Position numbers and translations under genes: made by a program
Part shown: positions 26,649 to 45,721 of the stretch, piece after piece
Layout: each line of letters opens with the position of its first letter
Numbering within the stretch: the stretch's first letter is position 1
Assembly (NCBI GenBank): GCA_021414085.1
Contig: JAIOPC010000004.1
Coordinates: 1 to 64,000 of the forward strand
Direction of reading: 5' to 3'
From: Actinomycetes bacterium
GTDB lineage: Bacteria; Actinomycetota; Acidimicrobiia; Acidimicrobiales; Ilumatobacteraceae
DNA length: 64,000 bases
The notes under the pieces: generated by a model
What the model saw: only the letters and a program-made list of their open reading frames with translations
What the model was told of the DNA's origin: nothing
Database searches by the model: none

Positions 26649-26703
26649 TTCATCTTGGCGCTGCCCTGCGCTCATGTTCCATTCATCTTGGCTTCACCCG
26701 TGA
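26649..26703 (+). promoter_or_regulatory. PHO-box-like array of 11-bp direct repeats
   Basis: Five consecutive 11-mers: TTCATCTTGGC (26649-26659), a degenerate unit, CTCATGTTCCA, an exact second TTCATCTTGGC (26682-26692) and TTCACCCGTGA (26693-26703). Actinobacterial PhoP/RegX3-type regulators bind tandem 11-bp units with a TCA core. It ends 4 bp before the -10 of the pst operon. Confidence 0.65.
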
Positions 26704-26707
26704 CTTT

Positions 26708-26713
26708 TACGAT
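26708..26713 (+). promoter_or_regulatory. -10 element of the enlarged pst operon (leaderless)
   Basis: TACGAT, 9 nt before ATG 26723, directly downstream of the PHO-box-like array, which would cover the -35 position. Confidence 0.5.
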
Positions 26714-26722
26714 TCCGCGTCC

Positions 26723-27745
26723 ATGGACACCAGCGCCGGGTTTCAAGACGAGGGTCCCGCCGACGCCGGTGATGCGCGGGTCGATGCGTTCTTCGCCAAG
26801 CTGTGTCGCGAGCAGGCTCGATATCTGCAGACGTTCGGCCACGCTCGATCGCTGCTGGGCAGCGAATCGGGGCAACTCGCGCACGTCACCGCGATCCAGG
26901 GCCGTCTCACCCGACAGTTCTTCGATGCACAGCGCGGCATCATGCTGCGTCGTGCGGATGTCGACGCGGAGGTGGCGGCAATCGTTGCGGCGGCAGCCGA
27001 GCATTCTTTGGCTCTCGTTGAAAGCGCCCGCGCACAGGTGGCCGCCGGTCTGATTCCGCCCGCAGGCGACCAGCGCATCAGCGCGCCTATCTCGGGTGTG
27101 GTCCCCGTCATTCCTGCCGACGGCGAGCTGTGTGACCAGCAGAAGATCGCCTCGCTCGGCGTGTCTGCCCTGCACACAATGGAAGAAGCAGACGTGTTGG
27201 CGTCGGTCATCAACGACGCCTTCGAATCTCGCGAACCCGACGGTGCCGTCGCCGAGCGGCAACTTGCCGCCCTGCTCGACGAATGGTGGGCGGTCGAGGT
27301 TCAAGAAGGTGGTGCAGTGATCGACGACGCCAATGCTCGGGCCGCGGTGCGTCGACACGTTGGCACCATCGAAGCCGGCGAGATCTTTGAGAACGCGCGT
27401 GTAGCCCGGGCCGGCCAGGTGCCTGAACCAAAGCCCACCGGAGTCCCCCCGACAGGTCTCGCGGTCACGGCTCGGCCAATCGCTCAACTGCCACACAGCG
27501 TCGTCGACCTCACCAACAACGCCGACACCTCCGACCTCGCCACCTTGTTTGCCGAGCTGGCTGCGTCATTGGAGGAACCAACAGCGGCTCGACCAACGCT
27601 GCCCGTTTTGGCGGTCGCGCCAGCGATCGACGTCGATCGTTCGACCGAGTTGCAGTTGCCGGTCGCCGACCCCGACGATCCATTCCGTCGGTTCTGGGAG
27701 CAAGGGCCGTTTCCGAACGCTTCGTCGAATCGCTGGACCGCGTGA
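26723..27745 (+). CDS. hypothetical helical protein, first gene of pst operon
   Basis: 340 residues, no signal peptide and no TM segment. The first 110 residues are strongly helical (CREQARYLQTFGHARSLLG and DVDAEVAAIVAAAAEHSLAL). A middle region is rich in acidic residues (AALLDEWWAVEVQEGG) and the C-terminal third is proline-rich and low-complexity, ending DPFRRFWEQGPFP. I recognise no family. It is the first gene downstream of the PHO-box-like array and is followed after 4 nt by the next coiled-coil gene, so it should be induced with the phosphate transporter. It may be a cytoplasmic scaffold partner of the three following proteins. Confidence 0.7.
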   Translation: MDTSAGFQDEGPADAGDARVDAFFAKLCREQARYLQTFGHARSLLGSESGQLAHVTAIQGRLTRQFFDAQRGIMLRRADVDAEVAAIVAAAAEHSLALVESARAQVAAGLIPPAGDQRISAPISGVVPVIPADGELCDQQKIASLGVSALHTMEEADVLASVINDAFESREPDGAVAERQLAALLDEWWAVEVQEGGAVIDDANARAAVRRHVGTIEAGEIFENARVARAGQVPEPKPTGVPPTGLAVTARPIAQLPHSVVDLTNNADTSDLATLFAELAASLEEPTAARPTLPVLAVAPAIDVDRSTELQLPVADPDDPFRRFWEQGPFPNASSNRWTA

Positions 27746-27749
27746 CGTC

Positions 27750-28088
27750 GTGGCCGAACTAAACGGTGCAGGGTTGAGCGGGACGCTGGTGAACGGTACG
27801 CCCGCGCCGAATGAGCAGCAAGCCCTCTTGGAGGCAGAAATCGCCGCCGCCCAGGCACGAGTGGCCACTGCCCGGCAGTTGGCGACGCTTCGCGACGCCG
27901 ACATGCGCGCGGCGTTGCGCGCCGAACTGGACGCGTCGCGCGCTGCACTCGCCGCGATGGAGCTTGAGTACGAAACGACCATCACGAGCATCCGCGAAGA
28001 AGCCCGCCTCGAGGTGGATCGAATTCTCGCCGAGGCGCGATCGAAGGCAGTCGAGTTGCCAGTCGGGGGTCGATCTGATGCTGAGTGA
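27750..28088 (+). CDS. small coiled-coil protein A of the pst operon
   Basis: 112 residues, start GTG 27750, 4 nt after the previous stop. After a 25-residue Gly/Pro-containing start the protein is one long predicted coiled coil (LLEAEIAAAQARVATARQLA, then LDASRAALAAMELEYETTIT, then EARLEVDRILAEARSKA). This segment is related to the C-terminal half of the next protein (LEVEQILA end, same heptad pattern and length). No TM segment. Overlaps the next gene by 11 nt. Confidence 0.68.
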   Translation: MAELNGAGLSGTLVNGTPAPNEQQALLEAEIAAAQARVATARQLATLRDADMRAALRAELDASRAALAAMELEYETTITSIREEARLEVDRILAEARSKAVELPVGGRSDAE

Positions 28089-28701
28089 GACGCTCTCGAC
28101 AGGGGACTCGGAACCGTCGCTTTCCGCCCCCAGCCTTGCTACTCAACAGGCACCGGTGTTGCCGCCGCATGTCAGCATCGCGCGCCTGACGTTGCAGCTG
28201 CGCGCCTCACTGCAAGAGGCCGCCGACGCTGAGGCCATCGTTGCTGGCGCCAATGAGGAGACCGCACGCGCCGAGTTACGAGCGCGACTCGATCCGCTCA
28301 TGGCGGAACGACGAGCTGTTCTTGAGGAAGCGCTCCGCGTCGCGCGCGAGGAGGCCGCCGCGCACGTGTCCAACGCGCATCGTGAGGCCGCCGCTCTGTT
28401 GGCACCTGCGCCGGCGGTTACGGATTTGATGACTGACCAACAGTCGGGCGCTCACCAGGAACTGCAAGCCCAGATCGACGCAACTCTGGCTCGGGCCGCG
28501 GCAGCACGCGAGCGCACCTTGATCAAAGAAGCTGCAGTTCAGGTTGCGTTGAACGAAGAGCTCACCATCGGACGTGATGCGCTCGCTGCAATCGAGCACG
28601 AGCACGCGCTGGCTATCGCGGAGGTTCGTCGGGCGGCGCAGCTCGAAGTCGAGCAGATTCTCGCTACCGACCCGCAAGGGAACGTCGATGATGCTCGTTG
28701 A
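28078..28701 (+). CDS. two-module coiled-coil protein B of the pst operon
   Basis: 207 residues, ATG 28078. Module 1 (about 33-105) begins VSIARLTLQLRASLQEAADA and contains RARLDPLMAERRAVLEEAL; it is clearly paralogous to the N-terminal half of the following membrane protein. Module 2 (about 120-198, LQAQIDATLARAAAARERT ... AQLEVEQILATD) is paralogous to protein A. Thus B joins the modules found separately in its two neighbours. Overlaps both neighbours (11 and 14 nt). No known family. Confidence 0.7.
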   Translation: MLSETLSTGDSEPSLSAPSLATQQAPVLPPHVSIARLTLQLRASLQEAADAEAIVAGANEETARAELRARLDPLMAERRAVLEEALRVAREEAAAHVSNAHREAAALLAPAPAVTDLMTDQQSGAHQELQAQIDATLARAAAARERTLIKEAAVQVALNEELTIGRDALAAIEHEHALAIAEVRRAAQLEVEQILATDPQGNVDDAR

Positions 28702-29269
28702 ACAGCCATCGTCTGGTGACTCAGGCACGCCAATGCCCGCTGCCACGGAGCTGCCAGCGCGTGCAGTGACTGCCCGCCTCACGTTGCAGTTACGCGCCGC
28801 GACCCGCGACGCGGACGCCGCTGAAGAGGCCGAGGCGGCGGTCGATGCCGAAGCGGCGCGACTCCAGTTGCGCGAGCGACTGAACCCAATGCTGGAAGAT
28901 CGGCGGCGCGTGTTGCAGCAAGCGCTTGTCGCCGAGCAAGCCGAGGCCGCCGCACTCGTCGCCGATACGCGTCGCCAGGCCGCGGAGAAAAGCACCGAAA
29001 CGTACGAACTTGCGTGGGCGTCGGCAGTGCCGGCAGTGCCGGCAGTGCCGGCACTGCCGGAAGCAACAGCGGGCCTTGACCCGGCGGCGATGGCGACGCT
29101 GTTCACGTCGGTCGCCGGCAAGTTGCTCGACGAACGACTGGAACGCCTGCTTCCGGCACCGGAACCCAAGAAGCCATCGTTCTGGAAGCACCTCTTTCAT
29201 ACCGATGTTGTGATCGTCGGGCTGATCATGGTCTTTTGCTTGGTCGTTGTCGTGTCGTGGATGAGCTGA
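28688..29269 (+). CDS. tail-anchored coiled-coil membrane protein C of the pst operon
   Basis: 193 residues; start at one of two adjacent ATGs (28688 or 28691). Residues about 28-100 repeat module 1 of protein B (AVTARLTLQLRAATRDADAA, RERLNPMLEDRRRVLQQAL). A VPA repeat follows, then a helix (LFTSVAGKLLDERLERLLP) and a C-terminal TM segment (VVIVGLIMVFCLVVVVSWM) ending two residues before the stop, a tail anchor with the rest cytoplasmic. It could tether the coiled-coil proteins to the membrane next to PstC/PstA. Ends 16 nt before pstC. Confidence 0.7.
   Translation: MMLVEQPSSGDSGTPMPAATELPARAVTARLTLQLRAATRDADAAEEAEAAVDAEAARLQLRERLNPMLEDRRRVLQQALVAEQAEAAALVADTRRQAAEKSTETYELAWASAVPAVPAVPALPEATAGLDPAAMATLFTSVAGKLLDERLERLLPAPEPKKPSFWKHLFHTDVVIVGLIMVFCLVVVVSWMS
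29024..29059 (+). repeat. 9-bp tandem repeat inside protein C
   Basis: Four copies of GCAGTGCCG (the last with one change), encoding Ala-Val-Pro repeats between the coiled coil and the tail anchor. Confidence 0.85.
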
Positions 29270-29285: not shown

Positions 29286-30308
29286 ATGACTGCGACCACG
29301 GTGCTGAGGGAGTCCGAGCGCGATGGCACACCTGCTTCGCCGCGCAAGTTGTTCCAGCGCGGCGGCCGCGGTGATCGCATGTTCGATGCCTTGACCGGAA
29401 CGAGCGGACTGTTGGTGTTGAGCATCATGGTCGCGGTTGGTGTCTTCTTGGCCGTGCAAGCGATGCCCGCGCTACGCCGCACCGGCTTCTCATTCCTCAC
29501 TACTGCGGAGTGGCAGCCCGATCGCGGCCAGTTCGGCATAGCGGCCGTGATGCTCGGCACCGTGCTGATCGCGGCGGTGGCGGTTGCCGCCGCGTTGCCT
29601 ATCTCGATGGGAACCGCGCTGTTCATCACCGAGGTTGCACCACGCTGGCTGCGTGCGACGCTCGTCGCGCTTGTTGATCTGATGGCCGCCGTTCCTAGCG
29701 TCGTGTACGGGTTGTGGGGGGCCAAGTTGCTGCAGGGCAACGTGATTGGCATCTCGCGCTGGATCAATCGTTGGCTCGGGTGGATCCCGATCTTCTCTGT
29801 GAAGGGTGCCGACCCCAGCAGTCCGCTTTCCTCCGCGAGCGTGTACACGGCGTCGACCTTCATCGCTGGTCTGGTGGTCGCGATGATGGTGATGCCCATT
29901 CAGTGCGTTGTCATGCGCGAGGTGTTCTCGCAGGTTCCGCCCGGTGAACGCGAAGGTGCCTATGCACTCGGCTCCACCAGGTGGGGAATGATCCGCGTCG
30001 TCGCACTGCCGTTTGGCCGCGGCGGCATTATTGGCGGATCGATGCTTGGCCTCGGCCGCGCGCTCGGCGAAACCATCGCGGTGCTGCTCATCATCTCGCC
30101 CCGTTTCGACATGAACTTCCACATTCTCGAGGCTGGCGGCAACTCGGTGTCCGCACTGATCGCCGGTCGCTACAACGAGTCGAACGGGTTCGGGTTGTCC
30201 GCCCTGATGGCGGCGGGCTTGGCGTTGTTCGCCGTGACATTGGTGGTCAACTTCACCGCGTCGTGGTTCATCGCACGGTCCCGCAGCGGAGCGAGTAGCG
30301 ACGCATGA
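29286..30308 (+). CDS. pstC: phosphate ABC transporter permease PstC
   Basis: 340-residue inner-membrane permease with six TM segments; the first is about 40-60 (LLVLSIMVAVGVFLAVQAM), followed by a periplasm-facing loop and the BPD_transp_1 core (VMLGTVLIAAVAVAAALPIS onward). The coupling EAA loop is GEREGAYALGSTRWGMIRVVALPF. GLGRALGETIAVLLI is the PstC signature. Partners: PstA, PstB and PstS. ATG start 16 nt after protein C; overlaps pstA by 4 nt. Confidence 0.95.
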   Translation: MTATTVLRESERDGTPASPRKLFQRGGRGDRMFDALTGTSGLLVLSIMVAVGVFLAVQAMPALRRTGFSFLTTAEWQPDRGQFGIAAVMLGTVLIAAVAVAAALPISMGTALFITEVAPRWLRATLVALVDLMAAVPSVVYGLWGAKLLQGNVIGISRWINRWLGWIPIFSVKGADPSSPLSSASVYTASTFIAGLVVAMMVMPIQCVVMREVFSQVPPGEREGAYALGSTRWGMIRVVALPFGRGGIIGGSMLGLGRALGETIAVLLIISPRFDMNFHILEAGGNSVSALIAGRYNESNGFGLSALMAAGLALFAVTLVVNFTASWFIARSRSGASSDA

Positions 30309-31513
30309 GTACCGCTGTTGCTTCCAGGCTCACTGGGCTGACCACGCTGCCACCGACTCCGGAGCCGCTCGACGTCCCGCAGCAGCGACGCGTCACCGGC
30401 AAGTTGGCGCGGCACGACCTACTGATGATGGGTGGCGCCGGTGTGAGTGCCATCAGCACGACGATGCTCTTGTTCGGCCGGCTCACCCCGATGTCGGGAA
30501 CATTTGGGTTCCTGATCGTCGCGTTTGTGCTGTACATCGTGATCTACGCGGTGATTGCCTCCGTCACCGAGTCGCGGCCGACAGTTGTCGACAAGGTGAT
30601 GAACGTGCTGCTGACCTCGTCTGCAGTCATCGCGCTCTTCGCCCTCGCGACCGTGATCATCTTCGTGATCATCCGCGGCTGGCCGGCGTTGAAGCACTCC
30701 AACTTTTACACGGAGGATCTCAGCACCACTGGCCCCCTCGATCCGCTGACGCAAGGCGGCATTTCGCACGCGATCGTGGGCACGCTCATTATCACCGCGC
30801 TGTCGCTCGTGTTCACCGTGCCACTGGCGGTCGTCTGCGCCGTGTTCCTCAACGAGTCGAAGAGTCGTTCAGCCCAACTGGTACGCACGGTTGTCACCGC
30901 AATGACGGCCCTCCCGTCGATTCTTGCTGGCTTGTTCGTCTTCGTCGTGTGGATCCTGGTTTTCGACTTTCAACGCTCGGGCCTTGCCGCGTCAATCGCG
31001 GTCAGCATCATGATGCTGCCGATCATCATTCGTTCGGCCGACGTCGTGCTGCGGCTAGTGCCTGGCGGTTTGCGTGAGGCCGCAGCGGCGCTCGGCGCGC
31101 CGCGGTGGCGCACCGTGTGGCACGTCGTGTTGCCGACCGCTCGTTCCGGAATCATGACTTCCGTCATCCTCGGTGTTGCACGCGGCATTGGCGAGACGGC
31201 GCCGGTGCTGTTGACGGCGGGCTATACGGCGGCGATGAACACCAACCCGTTTGAGAATCCGATGGTCAACCTTCCGCTTGCGGCGTTCGAGTTGGTGAAG
31301 TCGCCGCAACCGGATCAGATCGCTCGAGGCTTTGGCGCCGCGGCAACGTTGATGGTGCTGGTGCTGATCCTGTTCTTCCTCGCCCGCATCCTCGGCGGAC
31401 GGCAGCCCGGCCAACTGTCGCAACGACAGTCCAAGCGCCGCTTGGTGCAGTCGCGTCACGATCTCGAACGCATTGAAGGTCGCCACAAGTTGCAAGGAGT
31501 CCACGGGTCATGA
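30305..31513 (+). CDS. pstA: phosphate ABC transporter permease PstA
   Basis: 402 residues, longer than usual (about 280-300) because of an N-terminal extension with two extra TM segments (about 40-100) before the conserved core. Core features: GTLIITALSLVFTVPLAVVCAVFL, EAA loop REAAAALGAPRWRTVWHVVLPTA, and VARGIGETAPVLLTAGYTAAMN, the PstA signature. ATG overlaps the pstC stop (ATGA), and its stop overlaps the pstS start, so all three are translationally coupled. Confidence 0.94.
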   Translation: MSTAVASRLTGLTTLPPTPEPLDVPQQRRVTGKLARHDLLMMGGAGVSAISTTMLLFGRLTPMSGTFGFLIVAFVLYIVIYAVIASVTESRPTVVDKVMNVLLTSSAVIALFALATVIIFVIIRGWPALKHSNFYTEDLSTTGPLDPLTQGGISHAIVGTLIITALSLVFTVPLAVVCAVFLNESKSRSAQLVRTVVTAMTALPSILAGLFVFVVWILVFDFQRSGLAASIAVSIMMLPIIIRSADVVLRLVPGGLREAAAALGAPRWRTVWHVVLPTARSGIMTSVILGVARGIGETAPVLLTAGYTAAMNTNPFENPMVNLPLAAFELVKSPQPDQIARGFGAAATLMVLVLILFFLARILGGRQPGQLSQRQSKRRLVQSRHDLERIEGRHKLQGVHGS

Positions 31514-33252
31514 AGTTGCGCCTTGTCCAACTCGCGTGTGCTGCGGTTCTCGTCGCTGCTACTGGCTCGCTGGCGGCGCCCCCGCGCGTTCAGGCGGATA
31601 CTTACCAACGCATCAGCGGCTCAGGCTCGTCGTGGGCGGCCAACGCGATCGATGCCATGCGTGTGAACGTGAAGCAGTTCGGTATCACCGTCGACTTCAA
31701 CCCCAATGGCTCGACTGCTGGCCGCAAGGACTACCTCAACGGCGTGGTCGACTTCGCCGCCTCCGACATCCCGTTTCAGTTCAACCCGGAGGATGGTTCG
31801 GCTCCCGAGAATCCCGCGGCGGGGAGTTACGCCTACATCCCTGTGACGGCCGGCGGCACCGCGTTTATGTACAACCTGAAGATCAACGGCAAGCGGGTCA
31901 CCAACCTGCGGCTCTCTGGCGAGAACGTCGCCAAGATCTTCACCGGCGCGATCACGATGTGGAACGATCCCGCGATCGTGGCCGACAATCCCGGCCTCAC
32001 CCTGCCCGCGCGTACCGTCGTGCCGGTCGTGCGCTCCGACGGTTCCGGTTCCAGCGCGCAGTTCACAGCGTGGATGATCAAGACGCACGAGCCGGTCTGG
32101 AACAATTTCTGCCAACGCTCCGGTCGCGCTCCAGCGTGCGGATTCACCTCCTTCTATCCGACCGTTCAAGGCATGATCGCCCAGCAGGGCGACTTGGGTG
32201 TCGCGGGCTACGTCTCTCAAAACTTCGCCGAGGGTGCGATCGGCTATGTCAACTATTCGTACGCGCTCGGGTCCCAGTTTCCTGTTGTAAAGCTGCTGAA
32301 TGCGGCCGGCTACTACACCGAGCCGACACCCGAGAAGGTCGCCGTTTCGTTGCTGAAGGCGCAGATCAACACCGACGCGAGCAATCCATCGTTGTACCTC
32401 ACCCAAAATCTCGATGGGGTCTACGCGGACACCGATCCTCGTAACTATCAACTCTCCTCGTACTCGTATCTGATCGTTCCGACGATTGTGCAAGGCCAGT
32501 TCAACCTGGAGAAGGGCAAGACACTCGGAGCATTTGCGTACTACGCGATGTGTGAAGCACAGCAACAATCGGCATCGCTCGGGTACTCGCCGATGCCGGT
32601 GAACCTCGTGGAAGCGAGCTTCGACCAGATCAGGAAGATTCCGGGTGTGGTCGTGGAGAACGTCAACATCGCGCAGTGCCAGAACCCAACGTTCTCGGCC
32701 GACGGAACGAACACGTTGGCGCAGAACGCTGCGGCCCCGAAGTCGTGCGATCAACAAGGCCCTACCCAATGCCCGGACGGCACCGCCGGTATGGCCAACG
32801 TTCCGACTGCGATCAACCCGAGTGCGCAAGCCCCAACGGCCACAGTTCCGGCGAGTGGCGGTGCAACCCCGACCACGGTCGCGTCGGGCGGTGCCACCAA
32901 GACCACGACGGCACCCGGTGCTGGCGGTGCGACCGGCACCACCGTCGTTGATCCGAACAACCCGAACGGCGTGACCGACCCCAACGTGACGCTGCCCGAT
33001 GGTTCGCCGGTCGTGATCGAAGGCGTTGGAACCGTGACTTGCATCGACCCGAGTGCCTGCGGTGCCACGTCACCCGATGGTGTGGCAACACCACAAGGTG
33101 CCCTCACGGCGGCGCCTGCTGTCGCCACAATGATTGCTGATTCGTCCAGCACCGGCACGCTCGGACTGGAGTTGCTCGTCGTGTTCCTCACTCTCGGCAT
33201 GGTTCTTGGTCCCGCAATCGCATGGCGCTACTTCACGGAGCGTCGCTCGTGA
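31510..33252 (+). CDS. membrane-anchored phosphate-binding protein, PstS family
   Basis: 580 residues. Signal peptide (MKLRLVQLACAAVLVAATGS, cleavage near VQA), then a PBP-type phosphate-binding domain with ISGSGSSWAANAIDAM, PNGSTAGRKDYLNGVVDFAASD and VRSDGSGSSAQFTAWM, which carry the Ser/Thr/Asp ligands of PstS proteins. From about 430 a Pro/Thr/Gly-rich low-complexity stalk, then a C-terminal TM segment (LGLELLVVFLTLGMVLGPAIA) and a short basic tail. Most PstS proteins are lipoproteins or soluble; this one is anchored by its C-terminus. Overlaps pstA and the next gene by 4 nt each. Confidence 0.88.
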   Translation: MKLRLVQLACAAVLVAATGSLAAPPRVQADTYQRISGSGSSWAANAIDAMRVNVKQFGITVDFNPNGSTAGRKDYLNGVVDFAASDIPFQFNPEDGSAPENPAAGSYAYIPVTAGGTAFMYNLKINGKRVTNLRLSGENVAKIFTGAITMWNDPAIVADNPGLTLPARTVVPVVRSDGSGSSAQFTAWMIKTHEPVWNNFCQRSGRAPACGFTSFYPTVQGMIAQQGDLGVAGYVSQNFAEGAIGYVNYSYALGSQFPVVKLLNAAGYYTEPTPEKVAVSLLKAQINTDASNPSLYLTQNLDGVYADTDPRNYQLSSYSYLIVPTIVQGQFNLEKGKTLGAFAYYAMCEAQQQSASLGYSPMPVNLVEASFDQIRKIPGVVVENVNIAQCQNPTFSADGTNTLAQNAAAPKSCDQQGPTQCPDGTAGMANVPTAINPSAQAPTATVPASGGATPTTVASGGATKTTTAPGAGGATGTTVVDPNNPNGVTDPNVTLPDGSPVVIEGVGTVTCIDPSACGATSPDGVATPQGALTAAPAVATMIADSSSTGTLGLELLVVFLTLGMVLGPAIAWRYFTERRS

Positions 33253-35933
33253 GGCGCCGGTTTGTCGTTTCGTTCGTGGTGGGTGTGGTCGGCACTTCGC
33301 TGCTCACCACCAACTTTGTTGCGACTACCGAGGTCGCAGCCGACGGCACCGTCGGGGTGCAGGGGACAGACACGTCACTGCCGCTGACGGACTCGGCAGT
33401 GACCCTCGCGGGGCGAGGTCGCTTCGCGGACCTGGAGGTGACCGTCAATCAGACGGAGAGTCTGACCAACCAAGCGTTGTCCCTGACGTGGACCGGCGCT
33501 GATCCGACACAGGAAGGCGCGTCGGGCCGGTTCGGCAACAACTTCCTGCAGATCTTTCAGTGCTGGGGAGACGACGACGGCACGAACCCAGACAATCCAG
33601 GCCCGCCGCCGACGCAGTGCCAGCAAGGTGCCGTTGGTGGCAGCTATCAGTTCAGCGACAGTTCGTACCCCGGGCGCTACTCGATCGGCCGGATCATCTA
33701 CCAGAACCTGTGGGACAACTTCGACCCCGACGCGGGAACATACGACACGGGCAGCGGATTCGTGTGGTTGCCGTTCAAGGCGGTCGATGGCACGACCATC
33801 CCGATTCAGGAAGATCCAACTTGGCGGCCCTTCAAAACCGGCAGCTACTGGATGAACCCGTACTACAACCAGATCACGACCAACGAGATCGCGGCTGCGG
33901 CAACACGCCCCGACGGCACGGGTGCCGAGTTGTTCCAGGTCAACACTGGGCTTGAGGCGTCAGGGCTCGGCTGCGGTCAGAAGGTGCAGCCGTTGCCCGA
34001 TGGCACCACGAAGGTCCCGAAGTGCTGGCTGGTCGTCGTGCCGCGCGGGATGGGCAGCGACGAGAACGCGAATACCTCCTACGGCGGCGCCGACGCCGAC
34101 GTGAACGGTGTCGTCACCTCGCCGCTGATGCCCGGAGTTTGGGAGAACCGAATCGCGTTCCCGCTTGAGTTCAACCCACTCGATTCGCCCTGCAAGTTGG
34201 GCCAGAACGAGCGGCGCCTGTCGGGCACCGAGTTGGCGTTTCCGGCGATCGCCAGTTGGCAGCCGCAGCTCTGCACGACCGGGTCGCAGGTTCCCTACTC
34301 GTTCGCACCGGTCGGCGACGCGCAGGCTCGCCAACAACTGACGGGCTTGTCCGGCGCACCCGGCATGGTGGTTGTGCAGCGTCCACAGAACCCCGAGTTC
34401 GTCGATGCCGCGAACCCCGTGGTGTATTCGCCGCTCACCGTCTCGGGTATCACCATCGGTTTCAACATCGATCGCATCCTTGCTCCGAATCCAGACCCCG
34501 CCGAAGCGCAGTTCGCCGCGATCCGTGTTGCGGATATCTATCTGACACCGCGACTTGTGGCGAAGCTGCTCACGCAGTCGTATCGGGCGGCAGTCACGAT
34601 GTACGAGCTACCGACGTACTCGTGGGTGCCGGGCAACCCCTTGGATCTCACCAAGGATCCCGACTTCTTGCAGTTCAACCCCGAGTTCGTGAACCTCACC
34701 GTCTTCGACACACGAGCCTTCAGCGGGCTGAGCGTTCCGGCTGGAACATCGGATGCCGCACAAACTGTGTGGGAGTGGATCTTCGCGGACCCGGAGGCGA
34801 AGGCGTGGCTCGACGGCGAGGACGATCCATGGGGCATGAGCGTGAACCCGGTGTACTCGACGAACGCGTCCGTCAACCCGAACGGCACGGCGTTCAACGA
34901 TCCGACTCCCACGTCGTTCCCCAAGAGCGACCCTTACTGCTATCAGGCACCAGCCGTTGGTACCGGAGAAGGGATCACGCCGCCCGCGCTGTGTTCAACG
35001 GACTGGAATCCGTATCAGCGCAATTTCGCCGTGACGGCGCAGGTCGGCCGCTCGGCCAACGATGGTGCCAAAGTCATTCAAAACCCATTTCCGATCTCGA
35101 CCGTCGACACTTGGTCCAAGGCAGCGCCGCAATCGCTCGGGCGTCACACGATGTTGGTGTTGACCGATACTCCCAACGCCGCCTTGTTCGGTTTGCAAAC
35201 CGCCAGCCTCAGCCGCGCCGGCGACAACGGCGCTAATCGAGTGTTTGTTGAACCGAACAGCGTGGGTCTCGCAGCCGGCCTCGCCGCGATGCGGCCCGCA
35301 AGTGTGTCGACGGTGCTGGAACCAACACCATCGGTGACGGCCGCTGGCGCGTATCCGCTGACGACGGTGGCGTACGCGATGACCAAGCCGCTGGCGCTGG
35401 ACAGCACGGCTCGTACGCAATATGCAGCGTTCCTGCAGTTCGCGACGACGACTGGTCAGACGCCAGGGCTGGACTTCGGTCAGTTGCCCCGTGGCTACCT
35501 TCCGCTGCCACAGAGCCTGCAGCAGCAGGCGGCGAGCAGCATTGACAGCATCCTGCACCTCGAAGCCCCGCCGACGACTACCACCACGACGGTGCCCACG
35601 ACGACAGTTCCCGCCACGGTGCCCACGGTGGCGACAACGCCCAAACCGCGAACGTCGGGTGGGGTGCCGGCTGCTCAGCCCAGCGCGACCCCGGAAGTTT
35701 CGGAAACCTCTGCGCCAATTTCGGTCGTGGTTGTCGTGGAACTACCAGAGAGCACCTCGCCGCCGACGGCTTCATCGACGACCGTCGCGGCGTCCGTCAC
35801 CCCGTCGACAGCGGATGGGAAGTCGCGCTTGGTGGTCCCATTCGCTGGCGGGCTCACTGTGCTCTCTGCAGTCGGCGCGCTGGAGATCACCAAACGCCCG
35901 CGTCGGCGTCTCCCGAAGCGTGGCGCGCCATGA
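33249..35933 (+). CDS. large secreted PstS-like surface protein with C-terminal anchor
   Basis: 894 residues. Start GTG 33249 overlaps the upstream TGA. Signal peptide VVSFVVGVVGTSLLTTNFVA; large exported region with several cysteine pairs (FQCWGDD ... PTQCQQG; LGCGQKV ... PKCWLV); a long central part with aromatic-rich segments; a stretch near 690-760 (YPLTTVAYAMTKPLALD) that resembles the end of PstS-type binding domains; a Thr/Pro stalk (about 775-870) and a TM segment followed by ITKRPRRRLPKRG. Role inferred from context as a surface binding or docking protein for phosphate compounds; the family assignment is tentative. Confidence 0.7.
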   Translation: MRRRFVVSFVVGVVGTSLLTTNFVATTEVAADGTVGVQGTDTSLPLTDSAVTLAGRGRFADLEVTVNQTESLTNQALSLTWTGADPTQEGASGRFGNNFLQIFQCWGDDDGTNPDNPGPPPTQCQQGAVGGSYQFSDSSYPGRYSIGRIIYQNLWDNFDPDAGTYDTGSGFVWLPFKAVDGTTIPIQEDPTWRPFKTGSYWMNPYYNQITTNEIAAAATRPDGTGAELFQVNTGLEASGLGCGQKVQPLPDGTTKVPKCWLVVVPRGMGSDENANTSYGGADADVNGVVTSPLMPGVWENRIAFPLEFNPLDSPCKLGQNERRLSGTELAFPAIASWQPQLCTTGSQVPYSFAPVGDAQARQQLTGLSGAPGMVVVQRPQNPEFVDAANPVVYSPLTVSGITIGFNIDRILAPNPDPAEAQFAAIRVADIYLTPRLVAKLLTQSYRAAVTMYELPTYSWVPGNPLDLTKDPDFLQFNPEFVNLTVFDTRAFSGLSVPAGTSDAAQTVWEWIFADPEAKAWLDGEDDPWGMSVNPVYSTNASVNPNGTAFNDPTPTSFPKSDPYCYQAPAVGTGEGITPPALCSTDWNPYQRNFAVTAQVGRSANDGAKVIQNPFPISTVDTWSKAAPQSLGRHTMLVLTDTPNAALFGLQTASLSRAGDNGANRVFVEPNSVGLAAGLAAMRPASVSTVLEPTPSVTAAGAYPLTTVAYAMTKPLALDSTARTQYAAFLQFATTTGQTPGLDFGQLPRGYLPLPQSLQQQAASSIDSILHLEAPPTTTTTTVPTTTVPATVPTVATTPKPRTSGGVPAAQPSATPEVSETSAPISVVVVVELPESTSPPTASSTTVAASVTPSTADGKSRLVVPFAGGLTVLSAVGALEITKRPRRRLPKRGAP

Positions 35934-36631
35934 ACCGGGTCACGGGTGCGTTGTTGGTGTTGGTTGCTGCCGGAGTCCCGTCTGTTGTCGCGCAAGCTGC
36001 TCCGTCGGTTCCGACGGCGAGCCTCGCCATCGTGAACCCCAGTGACGCGTCGCAGGCAATCACCGACGGCGACGAGAACACGCAGTTCGTGGTGCGGCCT
36101 CCCGATGGGGCTAGCTGCCCGGGCGACACGCGGCACGACGGGTGGCAACTCGCTGGGTTCATCCTCCCTGAAGAAGAGGACCCCGCCACGCAGATCTACA
36201 CCGCATTGGGTCCGGTCGAGCGCTACATCGACGATGTCACGCGTCGCCTCGCGCTGTACCGCGTGGAGCGATCTCCGGTCGGCCTCGCGAATCTTCCGCT
36301 CAACGATGTCGCCGGCAAACCGGCGCGCATTCCTGCGATCCCGACGCTCAGTTTTCAGCAGGTGGCGACGCTGGGCTTGGCCGGTGGGCGCTATCAACTC
36401 GGTATTGCCTGCGTGTTCGACGGGACCCAACTGGGCGATTACTGGACGGCGATCGTCACGATCACTCGGCCGACCGATCTGAAGAGCACCGAGCTCTCAT
36501 GGACCGTCGAAGTGGCCGCCCCCGCTCCCGAGTCTTCGGACTCGTCATCTACCACCCTCCTTGTTGTCGCAGTCGTCGTTGGCGCCGCGGCAATTGGCTT
36601 TGTCATCCTCCGTCTCCGAAAGGGCAAGTAA
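35930..36631 (+). CDS. secreted, C-terminally anchored protein with a novel domain (copy 1)
   Basis: 233 residues, ATG overlapping the upstream stop. Signal peptide (GALLVLVAAGVPSVVAQAA), one extracellular domain (about 25-185), Ser-rich spacer and a C-terminal TM (LLVVAVVVGAAAIGFVIL) with RLRKGK tail. The domain ends GGRYQLGIACVFDGTQLGDY plus WTAIVTI, which corresponds to the GTYHMGIACV and FWDTAIVI of the two other copies at 36638 and 41427. Function unknown. Part of the same start/stop-overlapping operon as pstCA. Confidence 0.72.
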   Translation: MNRVTGALLVLVAAGVPSVVAQAAPSVPTASLAIVNPSDASQAITDGDENTQFVVRPPDGASCPGDTRHDGWQLAGFILPEEEDPATQIYTALGPVERYIDDVTRRLALYRVERSPVGLANLPLNDVAGKPARIPAIPTLSFQQVATLGLAGGRYQLGIACVFDGTQLGDYWTAIVTITRPTDLKSTELSWTVEVAAPAPESSDSSSTTLLVVAVVVGAAAIGFVILRLRKGK

Positions 36632-36637
36632 CCCATC

Positions 36638-37516
36638 ATGTCGCTCATCCATCGACGCGCCGTCTCGCTGATCACGCTGGTCCTTGCCGCGTGCTTCGGT
36701 TTTGCGTCCATCGTTTCCGCCGATACGGCGACCCTCGCACCTGCTTCGGGTACGTCGGCGATCGACGGCAGTGGTCTGCGCGACACCGCGTTGGACACCG
36801 CCTTCAACCTGACCTTGGCCCCAGGAGCGCACTGCACTGGTAACGCCGCCGGCGGTTACCAAGTTCGCAGCTACTTCATTGGTTCCGGTGTCACCTTGTC
36901 GTCGGTCGACTTCGGGCCGCTCGGTTTGCCGTTGCCGCAGTCCGGCACGGGCAGTGGCACGACGTTCATCTCGACGCTGCCGAACTTCTCTGGTTCGGCA
37001 TTCACCCTCAACCCCGGTACGTCGGCACCGTTCCTGGTGACAGGCTTGCCGCAGTTGTCGCTGTATCGGATGGTGAACAAGGTCGCCATCCCGAACGGCA
37101 CGTATCACATGGGCATTGCTTGTGTGGATTCGACTAATCACGTTGATGGTGCCAACTTCTGGGACACCGCGATCGTGATCAGCGGCCAGTCGGCGACCAG
37201 CATGGGTTGGGCGCTCGACACGGCGACGACCACAACGACGACTACGACATCGACGACCTCCACCTCAACTACCACCACGACAACGGTGGGTGGTTCGTCG
37301 ACCACGACGACGTCGACGACCTCGACGGTGGCGGGCGGTTCGACGACATCGACCACGCGGCCAACCACGACCTCGACCACGATTCCGACGGGCACCATCC
37401 CGCGCACAGGGGGTTCGTCCTCGACGCCGTTCCTCGCCCTCGCCCTCCTGACGCTGCTGATCGGTCGCGTGGTCTTGCTCGTTTCTCGACCGGTGCGGGT
37501 CCTGCCGCCATCATGA
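36638..37516 (+). CDS. secreted protein with novel domain (copy 2) and IPRTGG sorting-like tail
   Basis: 292 residues. Signal peptide (SLITLVLAACFGFASIVSA), domain of about 160 residues starting DTATLAPASGTSAIDG and ending HMGIACVDSTNHVDGANFWD, then a Thr/Ser stalk of about 55 residues, then IPRTGGSSS, a hydrophobic segment (LALALLTLLIGRVVLLV) and a basic-ended tail. This order resembles an LPXTG-type cell-wall sorting signal. The domain is nearly identical to the N-terminus of the protein at 41427. The next gene encodes a sortase-fold protein without catalytic residues, so whether this tail is cleaved is doubtful. Confidence 0.78.
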   Translation: MSLIHRRAVSLITLVLAACFGFASIVSADTATLAPASGTSAIDGSGLRDTALDTAFNLTLAPGAHCTGNAAGGYQVRSYFIGSGVTLSSVDFGPLGLPLPQSGTGSGTTFISTLPNFSGSAFTLNPGTSAPFLVTGLPQLSLYRMVNKVAIPNGTYHMGIACVDSTNHVDGANFWDTAIVISGQSATSMGWALDTATTTTTTTTSTTSTSTTTTTTVGGSSTTTTSTTSTVAGGSTTSTTRPTTTSTTIPTGTIPRTGGSSSTPFLALALLTLLIGRVVLLVSRPVRVLPPS

Positions 37517-38481
37517 CGATGACCGCATTCGCACTCATGCGCGGCGACGCGGCGAACCCATTTGATGACTTTGCGACGAACGACTCGTTGCCAGTCAGCT
37601 CGGGGCGCCGTCGTCGCGAGCGCGACATCCCACCGCTGTCGCCGCGCAAGGAAACAGCACGCGTCGTCGCGATCGTTGTCTGTGTTCTTTCGGGAGCGTT
37701 CTTCCTGCAGCTCACCGTGATCGGTTCCTTCCAGGCGCGCGCCGCGCAGCGTCAGGCGTTCGACCGCTTTCGCGAGCGGCTCGCGTTCGGCACCGCCCCC
37801 ACATCGGGAGCCGACGAGGAAGGGCATCTGCTCGCTCTCGGTACGCCGATCGCACTCCTCGAGATTCCCGCGCTCGGGCTGAAGCAGATCATCGGCGAGG
37901 GCACAACCGCCGGGGTCTTGCTCGACGGGCCGGGGCACGAACGCGACACAGTGTTTCCGGGACAGTTCGGCACCAGCGTGATCATGGGTCGCCGCGCAGG
38001 GTTCGGAGGCGCGTTCTCAGATATCGGTTCACTGAAAGCCGGTGACGACTTGAACTTCACGACTGCTCAGGGCACCTTTGTGTATGAGGTCGTCGGAGTT
38101 CGGCGTGAAGGCGATGTAATTCCCGCAGTCCCCGCAGGTTCCGCGCGCCTGATTCTCGCCACGGCTGGCGGCTCCGCGTTCGTGCCCAACGGCGTGTTGC
38201 GCGTCGACGCCAATTTGGTTGGCACGCCGGTTGTCGGAGTGACACCACCGTTTCGGTCCTCGAATCTCCCCGCCAGGGAACGGGTGATGCACAACGACAC
38301 ATCGACGCTCTGGGTATTGGCATTTTGGCTGCAGGTGTTGTTGTTGTTTGCGCTCGCCGCGATCTGGGCGTGGCATCGCTGGGGTCACATTCAGGCCTGG
38401 ATCGTGTTCTTCCCCACCCTGTTGTTCGTTGGCCTGGCCGTTTCGGGAGAAGCAGCGCGGCTGCTTCCAAACCTGCTGTGA
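37513..38481 (+). CDS. sortase-fold membrane protein lacking catalytic His and Cys (pseudo-sortase)
   Basis: 322 residues. Start ATG 37513 overlaps the upstream TGA. N-terminal TM about 50-70, sortase-like beta barrel about 110-240, two C-terminal TM segments (about 264-285 and 295-313). Sortase landmarks are visible: [41 protein letters not shown], and LKAGDDLNF. At the catalytic His the sequence is MGRRAG (R160 in place of His), at the catalytic Cys it is LILATAGG (A218), while the Arg is kept (R230). Class E/F-type architecture, probably inactive as a transpeptidase; could serve as a docking or chaperone protein for the IPRTGG substrate. Confidence 0.75.
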
Positions 38482-39773
38482 TGAACGATCCGCTCTTGCA
38501 AGTCGCGGCTGAGAGTGACGCCTCACCGGTGTCGTTCCCGGGCTCGGCTGTTGTGCAACTCATTGCCGAGGGCGACAACTTTTCGCGCCCCATCGTCGCC
38601 GAACTCCAGGGAGCAGTGGTGACTGTCACCGCGAGAGGAATCGAGGCGAGCGACGGTGGCGGTGCTTGGTCGTGGTCGTTCGCGGAACTGGAGCGGGTTG
38701 TCCATGGGGCCGACGAGCCATGGAGCATCTTGGCGGTGCCCGGGGTTGAGGATTTCGGCGTCGCGGTCCCCCCTGCGCGGGTGGCCGAGTTCCGTCGACT
38801 GGTCGATGGTCGCGGCGCCGCGCTGCGACCCGCGCCCGCCGCCAATCAGCCGTTGTCAACGGCACCTGCTTTGCCGCTGCTGCAGATGCCGCGTCTGGAA
38901 CCCAGCCCCCTTCGGCCGGAACCGATTCCCGTCCCGCCGTTAACCATGCGCACCGAAATCCTGCCCACCAGCGCACCGATAGGCGCACCGATGGGCGGGC
39001 CGAGCGACCTGGTGGCTACCGACATCTCCGCGTGGTTCGGAAACCACCAGGTATTAGATCGGGTCTCGCTCGCTATGCCGGCCGGCAAGGTGACCGCCCT
39101 GATCGGTCCCTCGGGCTGCGGCAAGTCCACGTTCCTCCGCATCCTCAACCGAATGCACGAGATGATTCCTTCGGCCAGCCTTGCCGGCGAGGTACGTCTT
39201 GATGGTGACGACATCTACGACCCGGAGAAGAAGCTGACGGATGCCCGGCGGCACATCGGCATGGTCTTTCAGAAGCCCAATCCGTTCCCCGCCATGTCGA
39301 TCTACGACAACGTCATTGCCAGCTTCCGCCTGACCGGGTTCAAGGCGTCGTCGGCGACGAAGGACGAAGTCGTCGAACAGTGCCTGACCAAGGCAGGTCT
39401 GTGGAAAGAAGTACGCGATCGCCTACAGCAGCCTGGCGGTGGCCTTTCGGGTGGTCAACAGCAACGGCTGTGCATCGCCCGCGCCTTGGCGATCAAGCCC
39501 AAGGTGTTGCTGATGGACGAGCCGTGCTCGGCGCTCGACCCCACATCGACGCGGCGCATCGAGGAAACGATCGGGCAATTGGCGGCCGACCTCACGATCG
39601 TGATCGTGACCCACAACATGCAGCAGGCCGCACGTGTGTCGGACCTTTGTGCCTTCTTTCTCGCCGAGCAGGGCACCCCCGGTTACATCGTCGAGCACGG
39701 CCCGACCGACGCGTTGTTCTCCGTGCCCCAGGATCCACGCACGAACGATTACGTCAACGGCCGGTTCGGCTGA
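38481..39773 (+). CDS. pstB: phosphate ABC transporter ATP-binding protein PstB with N-terminal extension
   Basis: 430 residues. The last 255 form a standard PstB: Walker [21 protein letters not shown]-loop [11 protein letters not shown], signature [18 protein letters not shown], Walker [14 protein letters not shown], switch [12 protein letters not shown]. PstB normally has about 250-260 residues; here about 175 extra residues precede it. They contain a predicted all-beta domain (about 25-112, [20 protein letters not shown] through [12 protein letters not shown]) that looks PH-like, then a Pro-rich linker. Start ATG 38481 overlaps the pseudo-sortase stop by one base (TGATG). Last gene of the operon; no phoU in the window. 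Confidence 0.92.
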
Positions 39774-39830
39774 CGCTACGCAAGTCGTGCACTAAGGGTG
39801 AGCAATGACTTCCGCCAGTAGCCATTGAGC

Positions 39831-39863
39831 GTTCATCTTGCCTTCAGTTGATGGTCAGACGGG
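39831..39863 (+). promoter_or_regulatory. PHO-box-like direct repeats upstream of the second pstS-like gene
   Basis: Three 11-mers in register: GTTCATCTTGC (39831-39841), CTTCAGTTGAT (39842-39852), GGTCAGACGGG (39853-39863), each with a TCA at the same place. The first matches the repeated 11-mer of the array at 26649 in 9 of 11 positions. A -10-like TACGAA follows at 39875-39880. Confidence 0.62.
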
Positions 39864-39940
39864 AGTGAGACCCTTACGAAGTACGGGCATTCTCCTGTCG
39901 GTGCACTTCCACACTCCTTGAAAGGAATCGTCAACTCATC

Positions 39941-41353
39941 ATGCGAATCTCATCTAAGAAGCGAATTGCGCTCGGCTTGGTGGCAATCACCATGGCCACC
40001 GGCGCATTCAGCGGCGGATCGTCCGTCGTACAAGCAGATCCGCCGGCATCGCTCGGCCTGTCGTACTCCGGTGTCGGCTCCGACACCACCCAGGCTGTCA
40101 TGGACGCCTTCTCCGGCCAGGCCAACGGGATCGCTTATCCCCGTGCCATCTCCCAGGGCGCGGTCATCGAGAGCTACGACGCAGACATCGCAACCCCCGG
40201 CTCGACCGACCCGTGCATCACGACCACCTTCAACGGTGTCGCATTCACCCGTCCGAACGGTTCCGGTGCCGGCCAAAAGGCACTCGCCGCAGCCAACGGT
40301 CAGGGCGCTGTTGGCAACCCGACCAGGTGGCTCGGCAACAACAACGTTTTCGCCAACGCAATCTGCGGCCAGGCCGCCTTCGTTGCTCCGAACAACACGC
40401 CAGCAATCGCGATTGCGAACTCGGTGAACATCGCCGGTCAGGTTGCGTTCGCCCGCTCGTCGAGCGGCCCGGTTGCGGGTTCCGGCCTCACCTGGGTGCC
40501 GTTCGCGCAGGACGGCATCAGCGCCGGCTACGTGTTCAAGAACATCACTGGCCCGGCCGGTGCCGCGGTTACGACGGTCACCCGCAAGGACCTGATCGAC
40601 ATCTACAACACTGGTCCGAAGGCAATCGTCAGCGGTGGCCAGCCGGTCCTCTTGATGGCTTGTGACCTCAACGTGCTCTCGGGTACCCGCAAGTTCTGGG
40701 GTACTGCGGTGCAGAACACCCTGATGTCGGGCAGCGTTCCTGCTGCGTTGCCGGCCGCCGTGCCGACCGACGCCAATGGCATCTGCAACTCGGTGTTCCA
40801 GGAGAACACCCTCGCTCCCGTGGCCGCCCGCGCCAACGCGTTGGCCGCTGCTAACCCGACCGGCATCGTGTTCAACTCGGTCAACTACACCAACTTCCAG
40901 TTGATCGTGGGCCACTCGGCTGCTGGGTTCATCGCGCAGAAGAACGGCGCAATCTCCGCCGCTCTGCTGCCGGCGTCCGGCGACTACGGCCTCACCTCCA
41001 TCAGCGACAACAGCCTCACCGGCACCGGCGGCGTCAACCTCGGCGCCCCGTATTCCGTCGCTGGTCCCGTGTACAGCGCAAACTCGACGTTCTACACCAC
41101 CGACGCTGTCTTCGGTCGCAAGGTGTACAACGTGCTGCCCAGCTCGGTCATGACCGCGTTGGCTGGCGACTCGACCGACGTCGTGCTGCGCTCGCTGTTC
41201 TTCGGGCCAACCTCGCCGATCTGCCTGGGCACGTCGATCATCTCGACGTTCGGTTACTTGAACCTGGCAGCAGGCACCGGCTCGGGTACGACCACCTGCG
41301 GTTCCATCGGAGCCACCGGCGGCTGGACGGCCCCGAACAGCACGCTGAGCTGA
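39941..41353 (+). CDS. secreted soluble PstS-like (PBP superfamily) protein
   Basis: 470 residues. Signal peptide (KKRIALGLVAITMATGAFSG, cleavage near VQA) and no lipobox or C-terminal TM, so released or wall-retained. The mature part begins with SYSGVGSDTTQAVMDAF and contains RPNGSGAGQKAL, VAFARSSSGP and TRKDLIDIYN, all arranged as in phosphate-binding PBP domains; GSDTTQ and NGSGAG would supply ligand residues. A PHO-box-like array and an AAAGGA ribosome binding site precede it with a 55-nt leader, so it is expected to be expressed strongly under phosphate limitation, separately from the pst operon. Confidence 0.8.
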   Translation: MRISSKKRIALGLVAITMATGAFSGGSSVVQADPPASLGLSYSGVGSDTTQAVMDAFSGQANGIAYPRAISQGAVIESYDADIATPGSTDPCITTTFNGVAFTRPNGSGAGQKALAAANGQGAVGNPTRWLGNNNVFANAICGQAAFVAPNNTPAIAIANSVNIAGQVAFARSSSGPVAGSGLTWVPFAQDGISAGYVFKNITGPAGAAVTTVTRKDLIDIYNTGPKAIVSGGQPVLLMACDLNVLSGTRKFWGTAVQNTLMSGSVPAALPAAVPTDANGICNSVFQENTLAPVAARANALAAANPTGIVFNSVNYTNFQLIVGHSAAGFIAQKNGAISAALLPASGDYGLTSISDNSLTGTGGVNLGAPYSVAGPVYSANSTFYTTDAVFGRKVYNVLPSSVMTALAGDSTDVVLRSLFFGPTSPICLGTSIISTFGYLNLAAGTGSGTTTCGSIGATGGWTAPNSTLS

Positions 41354-41354
41354 T

Positions 41355-41380
41355 GCCGAGTCTTTCGGCTCTCAAATTTT
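41355..41380 (+). terminator. weak hairpin after the PstS-like gene
   Basis: GCCGA (41355-41359) pairs with TCGGC (41365-41369), followed by an AAATTTT stretch. A five-bp stem would allow partial read-through into the next gene. Confidence 0.35.
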
Positions 41381-41426
41381 CCCCCAACTCACTTTCAATC
41401 ACAACGTCTCGAAAGGACAACGATTC

Positions 41427-43406: not shown

Positions 43407-43437
43407 TTAGTTGTAGTTCTTGTATCCCGAGCGTTGT

Positions 43438-43477
43438 GGTGTGGGGGCTCCGGCCCCCACACCGCTTCGCCGTTTTT
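43438..43477 (+). terminator. Rho-independent terminator
   Basis: A perfect 11-bp GC-rich stem, 43438-43448 with 43453-43463, 4-nt loop TCCG, followed 9 nt later by TTTTT at 43473-43477. It closes the PstS-like/FN3 transcript. Confidence 0.9.
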
Positions 43478-43503
43478 CCGCCTCAACTGAAAGCCCCCAA
43501 CAA

Positions 43504-44604
43504 ATGAACCTTCGCGTCAAGCCCGTCTCCGCCGTCCTCGCCATGCTGTTGCTGTCGGGGGCCATGATTGCGCCGTTTGCGTACGCGGAGGACGCGGCGC
43601 CGCCCACGACTGAGCCGACGCCAGCTCCTACACCTACCGACGACACGGCCGTGCCCCCCGAGAATGTGATCGTCGAGAGCTTCTCCATTGGTCCGACTGG
43701 TTCGCTGGATCCGAGCCAGCCCGGCGACCGCGTCAATTTCTCCTACGACGCCGCGCCCGGCGTCGTGATCCACGACTCCGTCACCGTGTACAACGTCGGC
43801 AACGTGGCACTGCCGTTCCACGTGTACTCCACTGACGGCTTCAACCAGACCGACGGAACTTTCGACTTGCTGACCGGTGACGAACTCCCGACCGATGTCG
43901 GCAGTTGGGTGACGTTCGACGCGCAGGACCTCACGATCCCTGCGGGCAAGCAAGCACTCATCCCGATCACCATCACGGTGCCAGCCGATGCGAGCCCAGG
44001 CGACCATGTTGGCGGCATCGTCGCCTCAAGTCCGATCGAAGGTAAGAACGACACCGGCCAGATCATCACGGTCGATCGCCGCGTCGGTGCCAAGCTCTAC
44101 ATTCGGGTCACGGGCACGCTGCACGCCGAATTGGCTGTCACGCAACTCAACGGCGATTACTCCCACGCTCTCAACCCGCTCGGTGGGGGCGCGAAGGTCA
44201 GCTTCCGAATCGAAAACCGCGGCGACGTCCGCCTGGGCGGTTCGCCAGTCGTGACCGTGTCGGGCCCATTCGGTTTCGGTGAGCAATCGATCGACCTGCC
44301 ACCGCTCGTCGATCTACTCCCGGGCGAGACCGCCGACTTGTCGGTGGACTTCGACGATGTAGGTGCATGGTTCATCGACTCGGTCTCAGTCGAGATCACA
44401 GCGGTTGGTGCGACAGAAAACGAATCCGTCGACCCAGTGCGCGGCGAGTCGTCGATGTTTGCGCCTCCGATCACGCTGCTCGTCGTACTTGCGTTACTCG
44501 TCGCCCTCTGGCTGTGGTTGCGCTCTCGACGACAGCGCCGTGCGGATGCGCAGTCCGACGGCGATCAGTCCAACGAACCCGAGAACGCGTTGTCGCGTAG
44601 CTGA
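43504..44604 (+). CDS. DUF916-like (WxL-interacting type) surface protein with C-terminal TM
   Basis: 366 residues. Signal peptide (LAMLLLSGAMIAPFAYA), an acidic Pro/Thr spacer, a DUF916-like beta domain (about 60-200) with HDSVTVYNVGNVALPFHVYS and ITITVPADASPGDHVGGIVA, a second beta domain (about 205-310), then a TM (ITLLVVLALLVALWLWL) and a basic, acidic-ended tail. In firmicutes DUF916/DUF3324 proteins work with WxL-domain and LPXTG-type surface proteins; here the neighbours have analogous features. Start ATG 43504 lies 26 bp after the terminator, so it needs its own promoter or read-through. One-base stop/start overlap with the next gene. Confidence 0.75.
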   Translation: MNLRVKPVSAVLAMLLLSGAMIAPFAYAEDAAPPTTEPTPAPTPTDDTAVPPENVIVESFSIGPTGSLDPSQPGDRVNFSYDAAPGVVIHDSVTVYNVGNVALPFHVYSTDGFNQTDGTFDLLTGDELPTDVGSWVTFDAQDLTIPAGKQALIPITITVPADASPGDHVGGIVASSPIEGKNDTGQIITVDRRVGAKLYIRVTGTLHAELAVTQLNGDYSHALNPLGGGAKVSFRIENRGDVRLGGSPVVTVSGPFGFGEQSIDLPPLVDLLPGETADLSVDFDDVGAWFIDSVSVEITAVGATENESVDPVRGESSMFAPPITLLVVLALLVALWLWLRSRRQRRADAQSDGDQSNEPENALSRS

Positions 44605-45671: not shown

Positions 45672-45707
45672 CGCGTTTCGCTCGCCGAGCACGCTGACGG
45701 GGCAATG

Positions 45708-45713
45708 TATTCT
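45708..45713 (+). promoter_or_regulatory. -10 element for the beta-lactamase-fold lipoprotein gene (leaderless)
   Basis: TATTCT, 8 nt before ATG 45722. Confidence 0.5.
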
Positions 45714-45721
45714 GCACCGCC

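Follow-up and report, generated by a model that had tools for sequence, protein, structure and literature searches.

A tail-anchored helical gene cassette at the head of a Pst-sortase operon in Ilumatobacteraceae, with signs of remodelling by tandem duplication

Introduction

The usual description of a Pst transporter comprises four proteins, with PhoU as a companion. What part might be played by four further genes directly ahead of pstC is the question raised by a locus from an actinomycete placed in the Ilumatobacteraceae (assembly GCA_021414085.1, contig JAIOPC010000004.1), analysed here within a window of 64,000 nucleotides (positions 1 to 64,000, forward strand). An initial annotation had read these genes as a cassette for coiled-coil proteins with shuffled modules, overlapping or 4 nt apart and lying between a PHO box and pstC; three of the products (A, B and C) could form mixed coiled coils tethered at the membrane through a tail anchor on C, with the first protein (P1) as partner. 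On its sequence, the locus is the cassette (P1-A-X, where X stands for C and its counterparts in relatives) at the 5′ end of a Pst-sortase operon, behind a PHO-type promoter; the operon represents a variant of a type already known, and the cassette family is uncharacterised in the libraries searched.

Gene order and host operon

The window holds dnaA and dnaN, both named from gene order, a recF-like gene and dciA, followed by the cassette and then by pstC, pstA and pstS, genes for secreted-looking proteins and for a sortase, and pstB (Table 1). The four frames proposed initially all stand, with the start of C more likely at 28691 than at 28688. A gene finder placed the starts of B and C further downstream (28156 and 28733, respectively), and the earlier ones were retained because their N-termini are common to the relatives described below. 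P1 and A are separated by 4 nt, A/B and B/C (C starting at 28691) overlap by 11 nt each, and 16 nt lie between C and pstC, so that the spacing first described holds inside the cassette but not at its border with pstC.

Domain matches, with names assigned by position, place pstC, pstA, pstS and pstB all in the operon. It shares these genes and a PHO-type box of 11-nt repeats with actinobacterial PstSCAB operons (PstSCAB is described in PMC7866108), and differs from them in opening with P1-A-X, in having pstS third, in carrying a sortase and large secreted-looking proteins, and in an extension of PstB. The long secreted-looking gene run after pstS (33222-46990) holds s1, an fn3 protein, the sortase, a WxLIP-like protein and a beta-lactamase-family protein.

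Table 1. Features of the cassette and its host operon, in window coordinates.
Feature	Position	Strand	Description
PHO-type promoter	26649..26713	+	TTCATCTTGGC at 26649 and 26682, 33 bp apart
P1	26723..27745	+	340 aa, helical
A	27750..28088	+	112 aa, no TM, N-terminus with NG; residues 47-94 (27888-28031) are the module repeated in B
B	28078..28701	+	207 aa; X-type module 1 (28078-28392) fused to second A-module copy (28522-28665)
C (X gene)	28691..29269	+	192 aa from 28691, or 193 aa from 28688
C, module 1	to about 28984		
C, DAD helix	about 29069-29143		
C, FW..H.DV motif	about 29174-29209		juxtamembrane
C, TM tail	29207-29263		
Duplicated unit, copy 1	27840..28400	+	A 3′ half and X 5′ half
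Duplicated unit, copy 2	28450..29010	+	apparently more diverged
pstC	29286..30308	+	BPD_transp_1 domain; name from position and homologous operons
pstA	30305..31513	+	BPD_transp_1 domain; name from position
pstS	31510..33252	+	phosphate-binding protein, PBP_like_2 domain; name from position
s1	33222..35933	+	about 900 aa, secreted-looking, without Pfam match; used here as marker of the Pst-sortase operon type
Sortase	37513..38481	+	PF04203
pstB	38481..39773	+	ABC ATPase; N-terminal extension of about 178 aa

Distribution in relatives

A search with C gave matches in 22 of 200 genomes of the family, its own included, and 20 of the 21 relatives were read at length, the 21st (G063, L105) ending inside X. 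An X gene, or the 3′ end of one, lies directly 5′ of pstC in all 20, a count that says nothing on pst operons without X, since it was a match to X that brought these genomes into the set. The X stop stands -4 to 12 nt from the pstC start (17 relatives measured). The cassette recurs before pstC, mostly as P1-A-X where contigs are long enough; the exceptions are G010, with a 75-aa frame in the place of P1, and L031, with a P1 fragment only.

The marker s1 matched 28 of the 200 family genomes, 20 of them (own included) at E<1e-100. X is present in 18 of these 20, and the other two (G023 and G042) carry before pstC a mini-X of 107 and 91 aa, respectively, made up of DAD helix and tail only, with module 1, P1 and A absent. 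X without a strong s1 match was seen in G040, G080 and G102, whose contigs end inside pstC or pstS, and in G063, which ends in X. The cassette tracks one type of Pst-sortase operon.

Outside the family, X precedes pstC at three loci (L067, L068, L069), and a fourth (L125) has a short protein with an X-like tail only. Strong s1 matches occur in 5 of 148 genomes: in G202 pstC is preceded by a 123-aa proline-rich protein whose tail is X-like, G253 carries X, G307 carries it at the end of a contig, on a stretch that does not include pstC, the G260 stretch begins at s1, and G263 (L126) has no tail-anchored gene before pstC. G387 and G357 also have X before pstC. Among the weaker s1 matches, leaving out G211, G304 and G311, four more diverged Pst operons of the order were opened (L127-L130), and the cassette is absent from them. 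All 12 named matches are MAGs, and they carry the labels Ilumatobacteraceae, Acidimicrobiaceae, Actinomycetes, Actinobacteria or Actinomycetota.

The profile of P1 matched 2 of 247 genomes across the class, both in the family and one of them its own. The X profile matched 9 of 248 genomes across the order, where the matches in G286, G309 and G218, with no pst gene in the surrounding 15-17 kb, were taken as chance. Across the phylum it matched 17 of 396, two in the family and the other 15 at E 5.7e-5 to 8.5e-4; the sole one opened of these 15 (L133) lies in 3.3 kb without a recognised pst gene and by eye resembles a generic coiled-coil protein. A second, diverged type of Pst-s1-sortase operon was also noticed (G124 contig C200, L106; G113, L107; G253 contig C139, L128), in which L128 has no cassette before pstC and the L106 and L107 contigs are cut before that point.

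A PHO-type promoter

Upstream of P1, TTCACC follows the second TTCATCTTGGC by 11 bp, and a -10-like TACGAT ends 9 nt 5′ of the ATG; the P1 transcript is perhaps leaderless. A 32-nt pattern composed after inspection of the promoters, TTCA-(11 bp)-TCA/ACA...TA...T, occurs once in the window (both strands scanned), ending 9 nt 5′ of the P1 start. It ends 8-9 nt 5′ of the P1 start in 12 of 15 P1 genes (missing in L037, L042 and L045), with 14 occurrences in total in 660,512 strand-bases (both strands, window and 20 loci). The spacing of TTCA pairs favours 11 and 33 bp (18 and 12 counts, respectively), which fits PHO boxes of 11-nt units, PMC7866108 describing a PHO box with two such repeat units. 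Both the box 5′ of the cassette and the place of the cassette ahead of pstC, as first annotated, are confirmed; the 11-nt direct repeats 5′ of the first gene mark a putative site of PhoP binding.

A PHO-type promoter would also suit a Pho-signalling adaptor, in which X, A and P1 inform PhoR or PhoU of how the Pst channel stands, and in G202 a gene that by eye is response-regulator-like (L125 7216-7920) immediately precedes the short tail-anchored gene and pstC. This neighbour is a single case and none of the four window proteins has a sensor or kinase domain above cut-off. We consider such an adaptor quite unlikely.

Modules and their tandem duplication

The initial annotation saw B as two modules, one akin to the N-terminal part of C and one akin to A, and this proves correct. 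The first half of B is 45% identical to C over 105 aa (E 7e-12) and its second half 44% identical to A over 48 aa (E 4e-8), scores reached by none of 500 composition-preserving shuffles in either case (z 18.2 and 12.8, respectively). The remaining module pairs score close to background (z 0.7 to 2.7), and P1 shows no clear whole-protein similarity to A, B or C (z -0.0 to 3.1, the top value against C).

At the DNA level, an alignment of 27840-28400 with 28450-29010 crosses both stop/start junctions at 57% identity (297/519), its best BLASTN pieces reaching E 7e-5, compared with a mean of 46% and a maximum of 53% in 40 codon shuffles, and of 46% and 51% in 40 gyrB/gyrA stretches. Given the starts chosen here, both window junctions (A/B and B/C) are of 11 nt, and the A/X overlap computed for 17 relatives measures 11 nt in 14 and 8 nt in 3, one of which (L033) becomes 11 nt with an alternative A stop (5334), its reference being one codon short. 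These figures include eight relatives in which the X start was moved from the gene finder's choice to near the A stop (L032, L033, L034, L037, L041, L042, L044 and L045); where it was left unmoved, the overlap is 11 nt in 8 of 9.

Similarity above controls across both junctions, together with the 11-nt overlap retained at both, makes it well supported by these sequences that one old tandem duplication of the A 3′ half plus the X 5′ half accounts for B and C. The window's B-type fusion is absent from all 16 relatives with aligned A and X, each of which has one A gene and one X gene. The claim of shuffled modules is upheld as regards the paralogy among A, B and C, but the arrangement is best explained by a single tandem duplication. 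Its products would be B (X module and A module, no anchor) and C (X module and anchor), in effect one extra soluble rod, and the window would exemplify how new protein architectures can arise through one tandem duplication with the start/stop junction retained. Module trees, mostly unresolved, leave the duplication undated and pair neither B1 with C1 nor A with B2; the branches of B2 and C1 (1.66 and 1.0) are longer than those of A and B1 (1.03 and 0.66), again with poor resolution. An apparently separate duplication is seen in the X of G149 (L044 3833-4897), which holds two copies of module 1.

The opposing explanation, that there are no true modules and the resemblance reflects the generic composition of Ala/Glu/Arg-rich helices, would agree with the richness of these sequences in those residues and with their weak Kyte-Doolittle periodicity. 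Already disfavoured by the shuffles and by the near-background cross-module controls, it also leaves unexplained a DNA similarity exceeding controls and the conserved 11-nt junctions, and we regard it as scarcely tenable. Mere helix composition was what the initial annotation had named as fatal to its modules, and the similarity went beyond it (0/500 shuffles).

Anchors, helices and conservation

As first proposed, C carries a tail anchor: a strong hydrophobic segment, with a mean of 3.0 over 19 residues from residue 174, is found only in C, P1, A and B remaining below 1.5. The layout of X is module 1, a variable linker, a DAEAFARVFATVFASLLDER helix (the DAD helix), SFW.HARHPDVLL, a TM segment and AW near the end. 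Mean pairwise identity, over 16 sequences with L044 excluded, is 0.50 in module 1, 0.61 in the DAD helix, 0.72 in FW-DV, the most conserved part, and 0.57 in the TM segment, with 0.26-0.27 in the linkers; DV is present in all 23 tails (20 X and three short forms). P1, taken initially as a partner of an anchored set, is itself tail-anchored (FW...VVLPM..AWIG) in 13 of 14 aligned relatives, though not in the window, nor in G149. P1 tails resemble X tails to a degree that no permutation of 400 reaches, in a comparison excluding the tailless P1 of the window and L044 and including one L068 protein taken as P1 counterpart.

A model of C (mean pLDDT 81, pTM 0.38) has a helix at 24-113, a short helix at 132-154 and the TM segment at 172-192. 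Kyte-Doolittle values gave no significant periodicity in eight tests (lowest 186 of 2000 shuffles). A core-residue measure, adopted only after that outcome, gave periodicity near 3.6 in X 56-105 (11 of 2000 shuffles), A (16), P1 50-107 (17), P1 17-44 (22) and X 25-105 (70), and none in X 25-60 (1622) or P1 173-229 (934). Since periodicity is significant in parts by this measure and not by Kyte-Doolittle, the cassette proteins are best described as predicted to be helical with partial amphipathic periodicity, a coiled coil not being proven; of the original coiled-coil claim, helicity is well supported for C by the model, and true heptads find support only in parts of X, A and P1 by one measure.

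Purifying selection on P1, A and X is indicated by their dN/dS among close relatives (four pairs, drawn from two groups): P1 gave 0.11-0.17, A 0.13-0.34 and X, the lowest, 0.05-0.10, compared with 0.05-0.07 for pstC in two pairs.

Family searches offered no established home. The four window proteins have no match above cut-off in Pfam or NCBIfam, nor do ten proteins of relatives in Pfam; PADLOC and PHROGs gave nothing convincing for the four and three L040 homologues (best PHROG E 0.019). A fold search with the P1 model (mean pLDDT 68.9) returned no match at E <= 0.001 among PDB or viral models, and no title in the open-licence PMC literature pointed to such a cassette. P1 also matches CHASE3 below cut-off (E 0.0018; 0.0002 in L040), which is regarded as a generic helix match. 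Profile matches of P1, X and A to solved structures, namely designed helical proteins (best E 2.4e-5), ribosome recycling factor and apolipoprotein (best 0.0077) and tropomyosin fusions (best 0.0063), are likewise ascribed to helix composition.

Weak matches to DivIVA and ATP synthase b subunits keep a scaffold role in view. The cassette might specify a DivIVA/SepIVA-like scaffold that labels poles or septa and brings the Pst-sortase machinery together there, its main partner being membrane or wall machinery and not the Pst channel. The L067 protein in the place of A matches Pfam DivIVA (PF05103) at E 0.001 and 19.5 bits, an anchored L068 protein does so at E 0.012 and 16 bits, and the phylum-wide X profile gives weak signals in other genomes, the one in L133 being a generic coiled coil by eye. 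Both matches fall below the curated cut-off of 28 bits, and the window proteins have none at E<=1; helical like DivIVA, they differ from it in sitting in a pst operon and in their tail anchor, which DivIVA is not known to have. We judge this scaffold improbable, if less so than the signalling adaptor.

A stalk like ATP synthase b subunits, holding PstB or surface proteins in place, seems very improbable. Common to both are a long helix tied to the membrane and weak profile matches (ATP-synt_B and V-ATPase_G in relatives, E 0.0006-0.035; A against NCBIfam subunit B′, E 0.039). All scores are below cut-off (A 13.8 bits against 186 for NF009988; the L068 protein 20.2 against 28 for PF00430) and could reflect generic Ala/Glu/Arg helix, the genes sit in a pst operon, and b subunits are anchored N-terminally, unlike the C-terminal anchors here.

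A possible accessory of the Pst transporter

Gene order, paralogy, signs of tandem duplication, the tail anchor, promoter layout, purifying selection and co-occurrence can all be read from the sequences. A partnership with the Pst transporter is suggested by the constant place before pstC, the overlapping genes, the PHO-type promoter and the good conservation of the tail. The reading that we favour, tentatively, is that the cassette may encode a phosphate-starvation-induced, membrane-tethered helical accessory of that transporter. Phosphate starvation would switch the operon on; X would insert through its C-terminal tail, keep its N-terminus cytoplasmic and project a helical rod of about 90 residues; A, soluble, helical and encoded by a gene overlapping X, may pair with X, and P1, tail-anchored in most aligned relatives, may join the bundle. 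H/Y-x-D-V at the membrane face and the TM segment could dock on the neighbouring PstC/PstA channel, and the set would serve as a membrane-tethered scaffold or activity regulator, with a possible effect on transport. Against an accessory role stand the absence of module 1, A and P1 from G023 and G042, that of any tail-anchored gene before pstC in G263, that of the cassette from L127-L130, and the Kyte-Doolittle periodicity, which is not significant. PhoU is moreover encoded elsewhere in the genome, so Pho signalling need not require the cassette.

A more specific version, which we hold to be doubtful, would make X a dedicated extra subunit of one Pst lineage. Its DV/TM part would bind PstC/PstA, its cytoplasmic helix would act with A and P1 to gate or cluster the transporter, and partial tandem duplication would have remodelled it in the window. 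If true, a conserved tail-anchored partner of one operon type would offer a new handle on the regulation or placement of actinobacterial phosphate uptake, and the minimal mini-X form (91 and 107 aa) makes its core testable.

Within the N-terminal extension of the window's PstB (38481-39014, residues 1-178), residues 45-110 match an N-terminal extension of PstC in G263 (L126 6009-7541; predicted from a TTG start) with 36% identity (E 5e-9). The two extensions are perhaps one accessory domain borne by different Pst subunits, and this domain may be PH-like.
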